Part shown: positions 9,403 to 26,612 of the stretch, piece by piece
Layout: each line of letters starts with the position of its first letter
Numbering within the stretch: the stretch's first letter is position 1
DNA from: Psychrobacter sp. 4Dc
GTDB taxonomy: Bacteria; Pseudomonadota; Gammaproteobacteria; Pseudomonadales; Moraxellaceae
Assembly (NCBI RefSeq): GCF_002836715.1
Contig: NZ_PJAT01000039.1
Location: 1-64,000 of the forward strand
Direction of reading: 5' to 3'
Length of the DNA: 64,000 nt
Notes under the pieces: model-generated
Seen by the model: the letters and a program-made list of their open reading frames with translations, nothing else
The model's database searches: none
What the model was told of the DNA's origin: nothing
Made by a program: the position numbers and the translations under genes

Positions 9403-10299
9403 CTAGGTGCTTAAGGCGTGTAAAGTAGCTAACGCTACCACTGGTGCAGTTTCGGTACGCAAGACTCTTGTTCCAATTTGCCAAGGCTCAAATCCAACAC
9501 TCTCCGCTTGCTGACATTCATCGTGACTCAAACCACCTTCAGGCCCGATCAACAGTTTGATATAAGGGGTCTGTTGTTTAAGAATATCAGATAGAGCGTC
9601 AGGCATGGCAGGTTGTCCTGCTGCTGGTACACTCATCTGCATACATAGATCTGCAGCGTTTGCTAATACTTGATAGTAAGAATCATGACTAAGCACAGAA
9701 ACGATAGAACTGACGGCCATTTGCGCCTTCGTAACGCCAGTAGCCATAGCCTCAGTAGTCTTAGCATCAGAATTGGTATTGCTTAGCCATTCGTTGATTG
9801 ATTGTGGCGCAAGAATAAGAGGTGGGCGATTAAGGCCGCATTGTTCACAAGCAGCGATGGCCACTTGTTGCCAGTGCGCCAGTTTCTTTTCAACTTGAGC
9901 AGGTTTTAATGTGACTTCGCCATGGTGGCTGCTGAGCAACTGAATGGCAGTCACTCCAAGCTCAGTTGCTTTTTGGATAGCATAATCCATACGCTCACCG
10001 CGGCTCATTACCAAACCAATCTGAGTGATAGTAGGCGGCGTACGATCGTCGTCTATATGTGTAAGCAAAGTAGCAGTGGTATTTTTTTTACTGATTGCCT
10101 GTAGCTCTACTGTATATTCGCCACCAAATCCATCGAACAAAATCCCTTGATCCCCAATATTGGCTCGTAGTACACGGCACCAGTGATGGACAACGCTATC
10201 TGGTAATTCGACATTGCTACCTAGCGGTAATTCACCCAATTTAGGTAGTGGTGAGGCATCAGTGTTGTCGTTGTTAATGGCATAAAAAAAACGTCGCAC
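9403..10299 (-). CDS. rsmE: 16S rRNA (uracil-1498-N3)-methyltransferase
   Basis: A 298-residue SPOUT-class RNA methyltransferase that modifies U1498 of 16S rRNA using SAM. The C-terminal knot signature is present: LLIGPEGGLSHDE, then GTRVLRTETA near the end. The N-terminal PUA-like part (VHHWCRVLRANIGD) is also typical. A stretch at about 165-200 rich in Ala, Thr and Ser is longer than in E. coli RsmE (243 residues) and looks like a linker insertion. The start is GTG at 10299, with AGGAATAAG well placed upstream. As a SAM user it sits next to the methyl-cycle genes, though a 300-bp gap and the metF terminator separate them. Confidence 0.93.
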   Translation of the reverse strand: MRRFFYAINNDNTDASPLPKLGELPLGSNVELPDSVVHHWCRVLRANIGDQGILFDGFGGEYTVELQAISKKNTTATLLTHIDDDRTPPTITQIGLVMSRGERMDYAIQKATELGVTAIQLLSSHHGEVTLKPAQVEKKLAHWQQVAIAACEQCGLNRPPLILAPQSINEWLSNTNSDAKTTEAMATGVTKAQMAVSSIVSVLSHDSYYQVLANAADLCMQMSVPAAGQPAMPDALSDILKQQTPYIKLLIGPEGGLSHDECQQAESVGFEPWQIGTRVLRTETAPVVALATLHALST

Positions 10300-10516: not shown

Positions 10517-10545
10517 TAAAAAACAGGCGCTCCTAGAAGCGCCAG
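10517..10545 (-). terminator. Terminator of the ahcY-metF operon
   Basis: GGCGCT-TCTAGG-AGCGCC on the minus strand is followed by TGTTTTTTATTG. It lies 55-80 bp after the metF stop. Confidence 0.88.
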
Positions 10546-10599: not shown

Positions 10600-11448
10600 T
10601 TAAGCAGTCAATCCCAATGCTTCTACCAAGCGTTTGTTTGGCTCAACTTTGTTCATGCTATAAAAATGCATAGCAGGTACGCCCTCGGCAATCAAGCGTT
10701 CACACAAGCGATAAACCACATCAAAGCCAAACTCACGAATAGCCTTACGGTCATCACCAAAATCCGTCAGCTGTTTACGTACATAGCGCGGAATATCAGC
10801 GCCACAGCTATCAGCAAAACGCAAGAGATTGCTTGAATTGGTAATTGGCATGATACCAGCGACCAAAGGCTGAGCTACTGTATCAATACCGCGTTTCTCT
10901 AACTTATCACGCAAGTACAGATAGCTGTCAGCGTTGTAGAAAAACTGGGTAATCGACGCATTGGCACCAGCTTGGTATTTATTTACCAGATTATCGATAT
11001 CAAACTCAAAGCTACGCGCTTGTGGGTGCATTTCAGGGTAGGAGGCCACTTCAATATGGAAGTGGTCACCTGAATGCTCACGAATGTACTTTACCAAATC
11101 TACCGCAAATGGTAGTTCACCCATGCCCACCTGACCTGATGGCAAGTCGCCGCGTAGCGCTACTAAGCGTCTAATACCTAAAGTCTTATAATACTCGAGC
11201 AATTCAGCGATTTCACTTTTGTCATCGCCAATACAAGACATATGCGGTGCGATTTCAGTGGTACCACGCGTACTTAGTGCCTGTACGATATCTAAGGTGC
11301 GGCTACGGGTTGAACCGCCCGCACCGTAAGTTACCGAAAAATAAGCTGGTGACAACTTATTAAGCTCATCATAAGTGCTGAGAAGCTTTTCGTGACCTTG
11401 CTCGGTCTTTGCAGGAAAGAACTCAAAGGAGAAAGCAGGCTTACTCAC
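10600..11448 (-). CDS. metF: Methylenetetrahydrofolate reductase
   Basis: This FAD enzyme reduces 5,10-methylene-THF to 5-methyl-THF, the methyl donor for methionine synthesis. The 282-residue protein starts FSFEFFPAKT, the family N-terminus with the catalytic Glu, and carries VTYGAGGSTR, LRGD and FFYNAD motifs. I place the start at the GTG at 11448, because AAGGAG lies seven bases upstream. A longer frame reaches 11508, but its extra 20 residues do not resemble MetF and overlap ahcY. With this start only 13 bp separate it from the ahcY stop, so the two are co-transcribed and share the riboswitch upstream of ahcY. Confidence 0.95.
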   Translation of the reverse strand: MSKPAFSFEFFPAKTEQGHEKLLSTYDELNKLSPAYFSVTYGAGGSTRSRTLDIVQALSTRGTTEIAPHMSCIGDDKSEIAELLEYYKTLGIRRLVALRGDLPSGQVGMGELPFAVDLVKYIREHSGDHFHIEVASYPEMHPQARSFEFDIDNLVNKYQAGANASITQFFYNADSYLYLRDKLEKRGIDTVAQPLVAGIMPITNSSNLLRFADSCGADIPRYVRKQLTDFGDDRKAIREFGFDVVYRLCERLIAEGVPAMHFYSMNKVEPNKRLVEALGLTA

Positions 11449-11461
11449 AGTCAGGCTCCTT

Positions 11462-12886
11462 TTAGTATTTATAAGCATCAGGCTTGAATGGACCTTCAAC
11501 TGGCACACCCAAATACTCAGCTTGCTTTTGAGTCAGCTTAGTTAGCGTACCGTTAAAGCCTGCAACCATCGCAGCGGCCACTTCTTCGTCTAACTTTTTA
11601 GGCAATACTTTTACGTATAGGTTGTCAGTACGTTGGTCAGCTGGCAAGTCAGCAAACTTCTCTTCGAACAGATACATTTGAGCCAATACTTGGTTGGCAA
11701 ATGAGCCATCCATAACGCGTGATGGGTGACCAGTTGCGTTACCTAGGTTTACTAGGCGACCTTCAGCAAGCAAGATCAAATAGTCGTTCTCATCGTCTGA
11801 GCGGAAGATTTGATGAACTTGTGGCTTGATCTCAACCCAGCGCCAGTTATCACGCATAAACTGAGTGTCGATTTCGGTGTCAAAGTGACCGATGTTACAT
11901 ACCACAGCACCAGGCTTAAGGGCTGCTAGCATATGTCTATCACAAACATGGTAATTACCAGTAGTCGTGACGATCATGTCAGTGTCTTCAAGCAAGCGCT
12001 TGTTGATACTGGCTGCGCCGCCCGTGTTGTCACCGTCGATGTATGGTGATAATACTTCAAAGCCGTCCATACATGCCTGCATCGCACAGATAGGGTCAAC
12101 TTCTGAAACACGTACGATCATGCCTTCTTGACGTAAGCTTTGTGTAGAGCCTTTACCTACATCGCCATAACCGATAACTAAAGCGCGGCGACCAGCAAGG
12201 AACATATCGGTAGCGCGTTTAATAGCATCGTTTAAGCTATGACGGCAGCCATATTTGTTATCATTTTTAGACTTGGTAACTGCATCGTTGACGTTGATGG
12301 CTGGTACTTTAAGTGTACCTTTACCAAGCATTTCAACCAAGCGATGGACACCTGTAGTAGTCTCTTCAGAGATACCATGAATACTATCAAGCATTTGGGC
12401 GTAATCATTATGAATCAAAGCAGTTAAGTCACCGCCATCATCCAAGATTAAGTTAGCATCCCAAAGTTGGCCTGATGCTTCGCCGCCAACATGTACTTGC
12501 TGACGTAGGCACCATTCATACTCTTCTTCTGTTTCGCCTTTCCAAGCATAGACAGAGATACCAGCAGCAGCAATCGCAGCAGCAGCATGGTCTTGGGTTG
12601 AGAAGATGTTACATGAAGTCCAGCGTACTTCAGCACCTAGCGCGACGAGTGTCTCGATAAGGACCGCAGTTTGGATGGTCATGTGGATACAGCCAGCGAT
12701 TTTCGCGCCTTTAAGCGGTTGGTCGGCTTCGTAGCGACGACGCAAACCCATTAGGGCAGGCATTTCAGCTTCGGCTAGCGTGATTTCACGGCGACCGTAA
12801 TCAGCAAGGCTAATGTCAGCGACTTTATAGTCAGTGAAAGAGGGATCGATCGTATGGGCAGATGGTGTAGTAGACACTGCGTCCAT
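11462..12886 (-). CDS. ahcY: Adenosylhomocysteinase (SAH hydrolase)
   Basis: This NAD-dependent enzyme splits S-adenosylhomocysteine into adenosine and homocysteine, relieving product inhibition of methyltransferases. The 474-residue protein has the N-terminal [17 protein letters not shown] block, the Rossmann motif GYGDVGKGS and the characteristic C-terminal Lys-Pro-Asp...Tyr-Lys-Tyr end. Length fits proteobacterial members that carry the extra 40-residue insert. AGGAGC lies five bases before the ATG. It is the first gene of the ahcY-metF operon, and the 5' leader contains a candidate SAH riboswitch, consistent with induction by its own substrate. Confidence 0.97.
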
Positions 12887-12929
12887 AATATGCTCCTATC
12901 AGTGGTTAACGAATGATAAAAAGAATAAA

Positions 12930-13072
12930 AACGCAGGTGCCGTTGTTTGCGCTGTGAGTGACCAAAAACATGGACTCTCGACAGTTAACCGAGCCTAACA
13001 TAACCTGTGATTGCATAACTATAGAATGTTAATGCAGTAAATCACTATTATGGCGCAACACCTCTCGGAGGT
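12930..13072 (-). promoter_or_regulatory. Candidate SAH riboswitch in the ahcY-metF leader
   Basis: On the minus strand the leader begins CCGAG (13064-13068), which pairs with CTCGG (12989-12993) as stem P1. The core AGGTGTTGC (13055-13063) aligns with the family core GAGCGCUGC. A long P2 hairpin follows: CATAA/TTATG, GTGATT/AATCAC, TGCAT/ATGCA. The conserved GGCTCGG comes next. GGCACCT (12935-12941) can pair with AGGTGTT over seven bases, two of them G-U, forming the pseudoknot. This is the known SAH riboswitch layout, and it lies 50 bases upstream of the SAH hydrolase gene. Known members raise expression when SAH binds. A competing ACCTC/GAGGT hairpin at the very 5' end could be the switch. 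Divergence from the consensus core is the main doubt. Confidence 0.78.
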
Positions 13073-13076
13073 CGTT

Positions 13077-13105
13077 ATTGTAATAGATGAGTGGTTAATT
13101 GTCAC
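13077..13105 (-). promoter_or_regulatory. Sigma-70 promoter of ahcY-metF
   Basis: On the minus strand GTGACA (13100-13105) and TACAAT (13077-13082) are 17 bases apart. Transcription would start near 13070, exactly at the 5' edge of the riboswitch fold, which supports both calls. Confidence 0.7.
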
Positions 13106-13234
13106 CTATTGACTGAGATAAATAGCTGACGCCTTAGACAAACAAAACCTCAAACAGGAATCTATAGCCATAAGAAAAGCCACCTGTAGATGACCTTTTT
13201 TGTTTTAATGTTTTTTGATATTGCTCAGCCAAAA

Positions 13235-15109
13235 TTAGTACCAGTTATAGGTGAGAGAGGTGAAATAACTTGTACCTTCTGTGGCGTACTCATTACCGAA
13301 TTGGCTGGCAAGGGTATAATCTTCATCAGTAATATTATCTACACGTAAGTTAGCACGTAGATTAGGTGTGATATAGGCACTTCCACTTAAGTTAAGCAGC
13401 GTATATCTATCAAGTTCATTGTTTTCAGTTGTAAGTCTATCATCGCTATATTTTGCCTCGAGGCGCATATCGAACGTAGGCTGCTGATATCCGATATAAA
13501 CTAAACCACTATTTTTAGGACGGTAAGGAAGTTGTTGATCAAAGTTGGCATTAGTTTTGGTTTTATTCTTCGCATCTAAGTAGTCATATCCTAGACCAAA
13601 TATAAAGTCATTCATATTCCAATCTGAGGTCAAACTCAAGCCTTTTATTTTTGCTTCACTAATGTTCGTACCGCTTGCAATAAGGTCTTCTGCGTCCGTG
13701 TGATAGCCTGTCAATCGTGAAGTTTGCATATCATTAGCGTATTCAATGAATACTTCAGTATTTTCACTTCTTTCAGGCTTTAGGTTTGGGTTGTTATCAC
13801 CTGGGTAGTATAGGTCGTTAAAGGTTGGTGCGCGAAAGCCCGTGGCATAATTTGCACCGATGCGCATACCAGCTAGCGGGCGTATGGCTGCTCCTAAGTT
13901 GTACGTGCTCTCATTACCATATTGTGAGTTGTCATCTACACGATAGTTGGCTTGTAAATCATAATAAGTATCTGCTAATTGATAACCTACAAAAGCGCTC
14001 TTAACATCTCTGTCGTCAGGGTCATAAGCGGTTGCAGTAAAATCAGAAAAATCAGCATTAAATACTTTGACGTTTGAGGCATCTAGTTTTTGTGATAGCC
14101 ATTCTGCACCCACAATGACGGTACCAGGTTGCGCGTTGATACTAGTCTCTAAGCGTGCCTGCTCTTGAGTGGTATCAAACTGGCTACCATTATCGTAACT
14201 GATAGAGTTGTTATCATGAGAGGTTGATTTATCAATACTTTGACCGTAGCTCAGTCTAGTAAGAGTTAATGGGGTTTTATATTGCAAATAGGCGTTAGCG
14301 CTACCGTTTTTTTGATCAGAGTAAGCGTAAGGAATGACTTTTCCGGCTGAATCAAACTCAGTCGTAGAGTCTGAATATAAGCCGCTAATCCCTGCACTTA
14401 ATGCATTTGTGAACTTATGCTGCAGTGCCAAACTGACATTGGTAGATTCAAAACCATCATCATCAGCGTTATAATCAAAAGAATTACGATTAGCAATAGC
14501 GTTAAAACCATCAGTTTTATTACGGCTGACACCTAAGCTCAGTGACGAAGTGTCATTTTTAAGTTGACCTGTCACGCCGACTTGGTAGTGATTATTACTA
14601 CCGTAACCAACGGTAGTGGAAACATTAGATTGTTCTACGCTATTGCCCTTAGTGAAAATTTCAATGCGATCAATTTGATCTGCTGACAATAAATTCAGCG
14701 ATGGGCTACCTAAAGATACCGAGCTGTAGCGAATACCATCGATAAGCACCAATACTTGCTTACTGTCGTAACCACGCATATAAAAGTTGCTATTAGTTCC
14801 CATGCCACCACTTTGCGTAATGTTGATACCAGGTTGATTTTTTAATACATCAGTGACTGTTTGACCTTGATAACGTTGTAACTCTTCTTTATCGATTACT
14901 CGTGTTTGCGCAATTACATTACTTGTCTTAGTAGGTGTGCGAGTGGCTGTCACGACAATTTCATCAAGCTCAACTTGTGGTAGGTTACTATCGTTGATGG
15001 AAGCGTTTTCAGAAATGGCTGCCATTGCAGTATTTACTGCAAGTAAGCTAAGAACGCTCAAAATACTTAAACGAAGATAGGTACGTGAAGATGCACGTGA
15101 TACAGACAT
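13235..15109 (-). CDS. BtuB-like TonB-dependent outer membrane receptor, plug segment missing
   Basis: A 624-residue receptor related to the cobalamin transporter BtuB. It has a signal peptide (cleavage near AMA-AI, about 30), a TonB-box-like VELDEIVVTA (about 46-55), a plug domain and a 22-strand barrel ending in SLTYNWY. In the plug, RIEI (about 148-151) is followed at once by FTKG. Family members have about 20 residues between these, containing the very conserved RG-x-x-S-x-x-YGS-x-AIGGV segment. This looks like an in-frame deletion and may impair the plug. I chose the ATG at 15109; a TTG seven codons upstream is possible. No cobalamin riboswitch was seen upstream, so the substrate is open. 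Confidence 0.82.
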   Translation of the reverse strand: MSVSRASSRTYLRLSILSVLSLLAVNTAMAAISENASINDSNLPQVELDEIVVTATRTPTKTSNVIAQTRVIDKEELQRYQGQTVTDVLKNQPGINITQSGGMGTNSNFYMRGYDSKQVLVLIDGIRYSSVSLGSPSLNLLSADQIDRIEIFTKGNSVEQSNVSTTVGYGSNNHYQVGVTGQLKNDTSSLSLGVSRNKTDGFNAIANRNSFDYNADDDGFESTNVSLALQHKFTNALSAGISGLYSDSTTEFDSAGKVIPYAYSDQKNGSANAYLQYKTPLTLTRLSYGQSIDKSTSHDNNSISYDNGSQFDTTQEQARLETSINAQPGTVIVGAEWLSQKLDASNVKVFNADFSDFTATAYDPDDRDVKSAFVGYQLADTYYDLQANYRVDDNSQYGNESTYNLGAAIRPLAGMRIGANYATGFRAPTFNDLYYPGDNNPNLKPERSENTEVFIEYANDMQTSRLTGYHTDAEDLIASGTNISEAKIKGLSLTSDWNMNDFIFGLGYDYLDAKNKTKTNANFDQQLPYRPKNSGLVYIGYQQPTFDMRLEAKYSDDRLTTENNELDRYTLLNLSGSAYITPNLRANLRVDNITDEDYTLASQFGNEYATEGTSYFTSLTYNWY

Positions 15110-15547
15110 AGTCGATTCCAAAGTAATCAAGTTAAAAATGCAGAAATGAGAAGTAACTATTATGACGTAAAAGGGGTCAAAAGTTACAAAAAACAGTATA
15201 TAAGCAAAACTGTGCTCATTATCTACAAATTAACCTGCTTTATAAACTACTTTAACCTAATATTTATTCAGGATAGGCTGAATGGTATTCATGTTAGCTT
15301 GCTAAATGATTTATTAAAAATTACTTTACTTAGATATTCTATGGGAATTTATACCACTGTATAATAGAAGCCTATCCTTAGAAACACCTACTATCTATTA
15401 GAAGCCTACATAGAGTAAGAAACCAAATACCAATACAGTTAGCTACAAAATTGCGTAATCAAAAGCACTGCTGTTATAAATAATTGTTACTATAGTATGG
15501 ACGCCACCTGTCATTTATCATGCCATTTTTAAACTAAGAGGTTTGTT
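15110..15547. other. 438-bp intergenic region between divergent receptor and MscS genes
   Basis: This very AT-rich stretch must contain promoters for both divergent genes. I could not identify a Fur box, a B12-box or a convincing sigma-70 pair. A 72-codon frame at 15146-15364 has no ribosome binding site or family resemblance and is treated as chance. Confidence 0.4.
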
Positions 15548-26493: not shown

Positions 26494-26612
26494 ACTGGTG
26501 GCTCCATTGGTAGCCTCGCAACATTGTTCTATGAATCCCGCCAGGACCGGAAGGTAGCAACGGTAATAGTTATAGTGTGTGCCGAGGATGTGCTGATGGA
26601 GTCGCTTTTTTT
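26494..26612 (+). ncRNA. ffs: 4.5S RNA of the signal recognition particle
   Basis: The RNA folds into one long hairpin: GGCTCCATTGG near the 5' end pairs with the GATGGAGTC end. The apical SRP signature CCAGGACCGGAAGGTAGCAACGG-like core (about 26548-26570) contains the Ffh-binding GGAAGG/AGCA internal loops. The flanking strand GTGTGCCGAGGATGTG matches the E. coli 4.5S layout. The 3' end runs into eight T residues, its own terminator. With Ffh it targets nascent membrane proteins to the SecYEG translocon. Confidence 0.95.

Follow-up and report, generated by a model that had tools for sequence, protein, structure and literature searches.

How is ahcY, the gene for SAH hydrolase, controlled in Psychrobacter sp. 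4Dc, and does the RNA leader in front of it sense SAH? The question arises at a locus on the minus strand of the 64,000-nucleotide stretch of contig NZ_PJAT01000039.1 analysed here (the window), where a first-pass annotation had proposed an SAH riboswitch directly before the SAH hydrolase gene. Riboswitches of the SAH class reportedly raise gene expression as SAH rises. According to the accessible text of two studies, the class prefers SAH approximately 1000-fold over SAM (PMC7367207), and a proteobacterial Rfam scan by Leyn et al. 2014 (PMC4239095) found SAH riboswitches in 2/4 Moraxellaceae genomes, with ahcY, metF and COG1385 as targets. Because Moraxellaceae SAH riboswitches before ahcY-metF are thus in print (PMC4239095), this kind of element is already known, and the question becomes which form it takes here and how it would act on the start of ahcY. 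We consider it likely that the leader is a divergent SAH riboswitch that works as a translational ON switch for ahcY and, via the operon, for metF.

Architecture of the ahcY leader

On the minus strand, the leader has the order promoter, CCGAG-AGGUGUU-GC, P2 arm, UUAGG-CUCGG, P4 insert and AAC-GGCACCU (Table 1). P1, the GGCUCGG motif and the seven-base pseudoknot AGGUGUU/GGCACCU named by the first-pass annotation are all found here, and 7/7 pseudoknot pairs are formed in the window sequence. The motif CCGAGAGGTGTTGC has a single occurrence in the window when at most one mismatch is allowed, and 0/100 shuffles contained a match. The annotated promoter is also present; taken by itself the promoter scan is at chance level (1 found vs 1.2 expected), and the two motifs are kept across Psychrobacter leaders, with TTACAAT in 61/62, TGACA in 58/62 and a spacing of 17 whenever both occur. 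Transcription should start at about the 5' edge of P1. A 5' hairpin, ACCUC-CGA-GAGGU, was considered as a general anti-P1 element and rejected, because the bases preceding P1 differ in divergent Psychrobacter leaders.

Table 1. Features of the ahcY leader and its controlled genes in the window (positions of the window).
Feature	Position	Strand	Remarks
Promoter GTGACA-N17-TACAAT	13077..13105	-	Motif scan and conservation across Psychrobacter
P1 5' strand CCGAG	13064..13068	-	Covaries among relatives
Pseudoknot 5' strand AGGUGUU	13057..13063	-	Covariation
P2 arm (54 nt)	12999..13052	-	Basal CAUAA/UUAUG (13052-13048 / 13003-12999); distal GUGAUU/AAUCAC and GCAU/AUGC
AGG (12996-12994) and P1 3' strand CUCGG (12993-12989)	12989..12996	-	Invariant in 39 Psychrobacter leaders
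Optional P4 hairpin, between P1 and pseudoknot strand	12952..12984	-	Base CUGU (12984-12981) / ACAG (12955-12952)
AAC (12944-12942) and pseudoknot 3' strand GGCACCU (12941-12935)	12935..12944	-	Also outer arm of the proposed OFF hairpin
Tail GCGU	12931..12934	-	With the pseudoknot strand, forms the putative anti-start arm GGCACCUGCGU (12941-12931)
UUUUUAUCA	12914..12922	-	5' arm of predicted inner helix, covering the Shine-Dalgarno
UGAUAGGAG	12893..12901	-	Shine-Dalgarno region; 3' arm of predicted inner helix
ahcY start AUGGACGCAGUGUC	12873..12886	-	ACGCAGUGUC (12882-12873) predicted to pair with the anti-start arm
ahcY	11462..12886	-	Adenosylhomocysteinase, controlled gene; TIGR00936 520.6 bits (above cut-off) and PF05221
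metF	10600..11508	-	Methylenetetrahydrofolate reductase; TIGR00676 295.1 bits (above cut-off) and PF02219; overlaps the end of ahcY

The P2 arm had been described as extended, with three stacked helices. All three exist in the window, but in 39 Psychrobacter leaders, drawn from 47 distinct long-P2 leaders and used for the RNAalifold runs and the P2 and P4 counts, the basal helix is paired in 92% of cells and the distal helices in only 61% and 79%. The length of the arm is rare outside Psychrobacter (2/119) but typical inside the genus, where the arm spans 18-97 nt and reaches at least 54 nt in 51/62 leaders, and it is not new in kind: while the arm has a median length of 17 nt among 25 members from the order's other families, one of these (L099, above the Rfam cut-off) has an 80-nt P2 arm. 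The insert before the pseudoknot strand, which had been called unusually long, proved ordinary and was dropped as a distinguishing feature, since its 44 nt lie close to the Psychrobacter median of 43 for the stretch from P1 to AAC (range 24-241, 62 leaders); it reaches at least 44 nt in 4/25 of those other-family members. The P4 base within this insert is paired in 98.7% of cells in the 39 Psychrobacter leaders and is returned unaided by RNAalifold. Five Psychrobacter leaders (L134-L136, L138 and L139, from G023, G005, G056, G038 and G021) have 130-241 nt between the P1 3' strand and the pseudoknot strand, which is very long as loops of pseudoknotted aptamers go.

Membership in the SAH riboswitch class

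In a relaxed-threshold run on 12880-13130, the Rfam model RF01057 aligned with positions 1-78 of 78 at 12928-13070 on the minus strand, i.e. in full and at the right place, but its score of 13.1 bits was non-significant (E 3.9 for the 251 bases searched; gathering cut-off 37). At the gathering cut-off RF01057 has no match in the window, and formal Rfam membership by score is not reached; the search of the organism's own genome gave no match at E <= 10. The score taken alone would not establish membership. The SAM/SAH riboswitch model RF01727 matched neither the window at gathering nor the same 251 bases at E <= 10.

What supports membership is homology. P1 and P2 occur in the correct order with conserved joints, the strand after the 5' half of P1 and the strand after AAC form a covarying pseudoknot, an unbroken series of relatives leads up to members above the cut-off, and the element lies upstream of the SAH-cycle genes ahcY and metF. 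Among 112 distinct rows, P1 is paired in 99.6% and the pseudoknot in 97.8% of cells, compared with at most 93.9% and 88.4% when the 3' strands are re-dealt; such parser-based counts lean towards pairing because the leader parser demanded P1 5/5 and five pseudoknot pairs. This set includes L100 and L108, which both fail the first P1 pair, and leaves out the duplicates L052, L053, L083, L133 and L137 as well as the fragment L141, which has no leader. P1 occurs as CCGAG/CUCGG, UCGAG/CUCGA, UUGAG/CUCAA, CUGAG/CUCAG, CCAAG/CUUGG, GCAAG/CUUGC and CUAAG/CUUAG, and the pseudoknot variants include AGGUGUU/GGCACCU, AGGUGUU/GACACCU, AGAUGUU/GACAUCU, GGAUGCU/GGCAUCC, GGGCGCU/GGCGCCC, GAGCGCU/GGCGCUC and GAGCGUU/GACGCUC.

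A MAFFT alignment of 39 Moraxellaceae rows, picked for diversity with 16 from Psychrobacter and one being the window itself, has 95.9% of the P1, P2 and pseudoknot cells paired, with double compensatory changes in 12/17 pairs; for the pseudoknot, 98.9% of cells are paired and 4/7 pairs show double changes. The covariation score of these rows is 0.495, compared with at most 0.129 in slid controls and a mean of 0.211 in shuffles, while the number of further pair types (30 vs 28.5) is not above shuffles. Within Psychrobacter alone, P1 and the pseudoknot are nearly invariant. Because rows from related species are not independent, the cell counts here and the p-values given below overstate the number of events. 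The first-pass annotation had asked whether P1, P2 and the pseudoknot covary in related leaders, and they do so strongly; because RF01057 aligns in full and the relatives covary, the contrary outcome, no covariance-model hit together with no covariation, was not what we found.

In the Moraxellaceae alignment, 16 columns are invariant. Fourteen carry the RF01057 consensus letter, and the remaining two, which pair with each other in the pseudoknot, have changed jointly relative to RF01057; the core changes that had been read as compensated are indeed pseudoknot letters replaced by pairing ones. Core letters also depart from the consensus outside the pseudoknot (AA to GC after UGC, CC to UU before AGG), as would be expected had an SAH-riboswitch-like RNA drifted to another ligand, e.g. 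SAM or a related nucleoside. We regard such a drift as highly improbable given that the controlled gene encodes SAH hydrolase and that the invariant columns agree so widely with the consensus. Thus, the homology and the covariation support, with high confidence in the aptamer, the proposed SAH riboswitch layout in a divergent, lineage-specific form, for which SAH sensing itself is predicted.

Relatives in the genus, the family and the order

As DNA, the 211-base leader matches 54/60 Psychrobacter genomes. Among the six genomes without such a match, G005, G014, G021, G035 and G038 have the element in front of ahcY in a form whose P2 or P4 differs greatly, and the draft genome G032 gave no ahcY match. 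An exact search with the core motif returned at least 118 stretches; among the 80 matches listed, 33 are from Psychrobacter and the remainder, presumably chance matches, are from scattered taxa. Compact Psychrobacter forms come closer to RF01057 (G028 34.5, G081 30.3, G181 30.2, G053 30.1, G177 25.0 and G035 23.5 bits; E 1e-4 to 0.05), with 0/6 above the cut-off. RF01057 matches 113/249 Moraxellaceae genomes at E <= 0.1, with 27/249 above the cut-off, and 32/293 genomes of the order at E <= 0.01, with 29/293 above it. Three genera in which RF01057 has no match (g7, g8 and g10) carry the element before ahcY in 8/8 loci with upstream sequence; a ninth genome examined (g5) has an ahcY fragment only.

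A covariance model, R1, was built on the 39 Moraxellaceae rows, the window sequence among them, and its matches to these rows are therefore not independent. R1 matches 219/249 family genomes at E <= 0.1, of which 91 are Psychrobacter, and no Psychrobacter is among the 20 listed of the 30 family genomes lacking a match; R1 and RF01057 matches combined cover 237/249. In the organism's own genome the window locus (73 bits) is the only strong match, and a second copy was rejected, as the next match has 14.5 bits. With 27/249 genomes for RF01057 against 219/249 for R1, the Rfam cut-off misses most of the Moraxellaceae SAH control. The element belongs to a familiar kind of sensor, in a divergent form that extends across the family and is mostly overlooked by the standard model, in line with the "divergent or lineage-specific form" suggested at the outset. 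The reading that there is no riboswitch here and that the leader structure is due to chance or decay would account for the non-significant RF01057 score; it is hardly tenable in the face of core letters that are invariant across the 39 Psychrobacter leaders, the covariation, and the number of Psychrobacter genomes with an R1 match.

Predicted pairing of the pseudoknot strand with the ahcY start

In the MFE structures, both for the leader and for its 3' part taken alone, GGCAC.CUGCGU is paired with ACGCAGUGUC, i.e. with ahcY codons 2-5, a pairing that the first-pass annotation had not anticipated, and UUUUUAUCA with UGAUAGGAG; the fold z-scores against shuffles are modest (leader -1.71, 3' part -0.79). 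RNAalifold on the 39 Psychrobacter leaders returned the start helix, the SD helix and P1 unaided, with a consensus that lacks the P2 base and in which a local GGUG/CGCC helix replaces the pseudoknot strand. When only the tails were folded, the start helix was part of the MFE structure in 34/34 distinct Psychrobacter and 45/45 distinct Acinetobacter-like tails, and in 2/25 remaining Moraxellaceae and 0/24 other-family tails.

The duplex between the anti-start arm and the codons has -15.6 kcal/mol in the window vs -9.1 in shuffles (p 0.015), and it beats dinucleotide shuffles (p <= 0.05) in 35/36 distinct Psychrobacter combinations. In a further set of rows the same threshold is reached in 12/17, among them 9/12 from g7, g8 and g10, the exceptions being L184, L186, L189, L197 and L199; in L182, L184, L191 and L193-L195 the ahcY start was placed at the second GTG, with the pairing region still inside the tested stretch. 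Start pairing is absent from L186, a g10 genome. Only 10/71 other Moraxellaceae rows and 5/25 other-family rows have p <= 0.05.

The coding side is conserved as well. Codons 2-4 of ahcY are GAC GCA GTG in 58/58 distinct Psychrobacter starts, whereas of the remaining degenerate ahcY codons in the tabulation all but two, one AAA and one GAA, vary. The D-A-V-S stretch has 192 synonymous codings, and nine of them, counting that of the window, pair at least as well as the window does; by this yardstick the signal is weaker in Acinetobacter-like rows (8 to 16 of 64 in five of these) and absent from the g2 genus (59/128 and 47/64). In a fixed register, the pairs between tail and codons are formed in 62/62 Psychrobacter rows at four positions and in 61/62 and 59/62 at two more. 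The Acinetobacter-like group has C-G in place of U-A at one pair in 60/60 rows and a broken outermost pair in 59/60. Counted over 23 distinct rows from Psychrobacter, the Acinetobacter-like group, g7, g8 and g10, U-A occupies the variable site in 10, C-G in 13 and a mixed pair in 0. Within Psychrobacter the start helix hardly varies (RNAalifold covariation term -0.28, double change in 1/32 pairs), and the cross-genus covariation of this helix rests on one site and the rewired cases. In these, L188 and L192, the strand forms an 8-bp helix that takes in AUG itself; L187 keeps the start pairing across 217 nt separating the pseudoknot strand from AUG.

An alternative explanation accepts the same aptamer and holds that the platform sequesters only the Shine-Dalgarno or the upstream leader, so that first-codon pairing is coincidental and the codons serve initiation or another purpose. 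In its favour, bacterial genes often have constrained codons near the start, the Psychrobacter SD helix is predicted with as well as without the imposed aptamer, and 19/25 other-family members have CCAUUC(G) beside the pseudoknot strand facing (C)GAAUGG at the Shine-Dalgarno. This explanation does not account for a complementary tail, UGCGU, that lies mostly outside the pseudoknot and is yet conserved, for the change of U-A to C-G in step between clades, for a pairing that is rewired but kept in L188 and L192 and maintained over a long distance in L187, or for the choice of the start helix by RNAalifold, and we consider it unlikely. We lean instead, with some reserve, towards the view that in Psychrobacter and most other Moraxellaceae the riboswitch makes functional use of the first ahcY codons, with codons 2-5 held by selection for RNA pairing and the leader and coding start co-evolving. 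The MFE counts outside the two main groups and the weak yardstick in g2 limit the reach of such a start lock and lower its odds slightly.

If the start pairing is real, the pocket for the ligand and the lock on the start site would share one RNA strand, and the pairing would explain why a gene for a housekeeping enzyme is conserved at synonymous positions near its start; the leader and the coding start would evolve together, synonymous positions included, and in L187 would do so across a long spacer.

A different platform, with two hairpins, was seen in the Moraxellaceae leaders L055, L057, L060, L063-L067, L069, L071-L073 and L075 and in L107 and L109. Here, the downstream partner of the pseudoknot strand is a GGCGAGC-like stretch, and the Shine-Dalgarno lies within a second hairpin, of the GCGUC.../...GACGC type.

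A model for translational control of ahcY

On paper, the pseudoknot and the start helix are mutually exclusive because both use the letters GGCACCU. In the model that we suggest, with moderate confidence in the start-codon lock, the aptamer would consist of P1, P2 and the 7-bp pseudoknot AGGUGUU/GGCACCU, whose covariation is described above. At low SAH, the pseudoknot 3' strand and the tail would together pair as GGCACCUGCGU with ahcY codons 2-5, ACGCAGUGUC, while UUUUUAUCA would mask the Shine-Dalgarno, leaving the start site shut. As SAH rises, its predicted binding would stabilise the pseudoknot, the shared strand would be withdrawn and the hairpin would open. The opened start would then allow SAH hydrolase to be made and SAH to be removed.

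We imposed the aptamer (P1, P2 and the pseudoknot) on the leaders in ViennaRNA. In Psychrobacter, the mean unpaired probability of positions +4 to +15 went from 0.10 to 0.42, rising in 59/60 leaders, that of the Shine-Dalgarno from 0.24 to 0.23 and that of AUG from 0.51 to 0.11. The codons changed from 0.42 to 0.45 in 55 Acinetobacter-like leaders, rising in 33/55, and from 0.48 to 0.50 in 23 leaders of the SD-facing type. For Psychrobacter, the calculation thus speaks for freed codons but not for a start site freed as a whole.

Four leaders (L076, L080, L081 and L132) have pseudoknot position 6 mismatched (C-A or C-U). The changed letters could pair at the start codon, as GACA/AUGUC and GUCA/AUGAC, and the duplex test was non-significant for all four.

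Control at the level of transcription termination was also considered, with the same aptamer and the U-rich stretch after the pseudoknot strand as part of an attenuator. The stretch GCACCUGCGUUUUUAUUCUUUUU follows the pseudoknot strand and CGCA/UGCG could give a 4-bp stem, but the scan shows no intrinsic terminator on the minus strand of the leader, and Psychrobacter leaders do not conserve the CGCA partner (L018, L043, L051 and L054). We therefore rejected an intrinsic-terminator platform and regard termination control as very unlikely.

Relation to known systems

The element resembles RF01057 in P1, P2, the 7-pair pseudoknot, the AGGCUCGG and AAC-GGC strands and the ahcY-metF genes downstream; it differs in its score, in the compensated pseudoknot letters and in the proposed start-codon pairing. 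The majority of the other-family members (19/25, L085-L111) share the aptamer and have a pseudoknot strand that runs into an anti-ribosome-site arm; however, their arm CCAUUCG faces the Shine-Dalgarno (CGAAUGGAG), whereas UGCGU in the window faces codons 2-4. Similar to the SAM/SAH riboswitch (RF01727), the element would be a small pseudoknotted sensor. RF01727 binds SAH, while for the window leader binding is only predicted; as far as the accessible text of the sources goes, RF01727 also has another fold and metK as its partner gene in Rhodobacterales (PMC2864571, PMC7367207).

Compared with Leyn et al. 2014 (PMC4239095), the family and the targets ahcY and metF are the same, with an rsmE-type gene (COG1385) as a further target there; the accessible text of that study gives no species, structure or platform. 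In the open-access literature, we found no paper on the SAH riboswitch in Psychrobacter, and the portions of that literature available to us held nothing on the element in Acinetobacter and nothing on start-codon pairing in the SAH riboswitch class. An expression platform with start-codon pairing is thus apparently new to the literature.

Controlled genes and neighbours

metF is probably the second gene of the ahcY operon. The two genes overlap by up to 47 bases (11462-11508, minus strand), which could couple translation of metF to that of ahcY. A terminator-like hairpin, GGCGCTTCTAGGAGCGCC followed by TGTTTTTT, lies at 10526-10543 (minus strand) and separates metF from an rsmE-like gene (9403-10299). 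Because this hairpin intervenes, rsmE is not clearly part of the ahcY-metF operon and was discarded as a certain member, which sets the window apart from the target list of Leyn et al. 2014 (PMC4239095).

Upstream of the promoter, a gene for a TonB-dependent receptor (13235-15130, minus strand) is closest to BtuB (TonB-B12, 280.8 bits, below the cut-off of 599.7). Elsewhere in the window, a small signal recognition particle RNA lies at 26505-26601 on the plus strand (70.7 bits) and is the sole listing of cmscan at gathering scores over the entire window.
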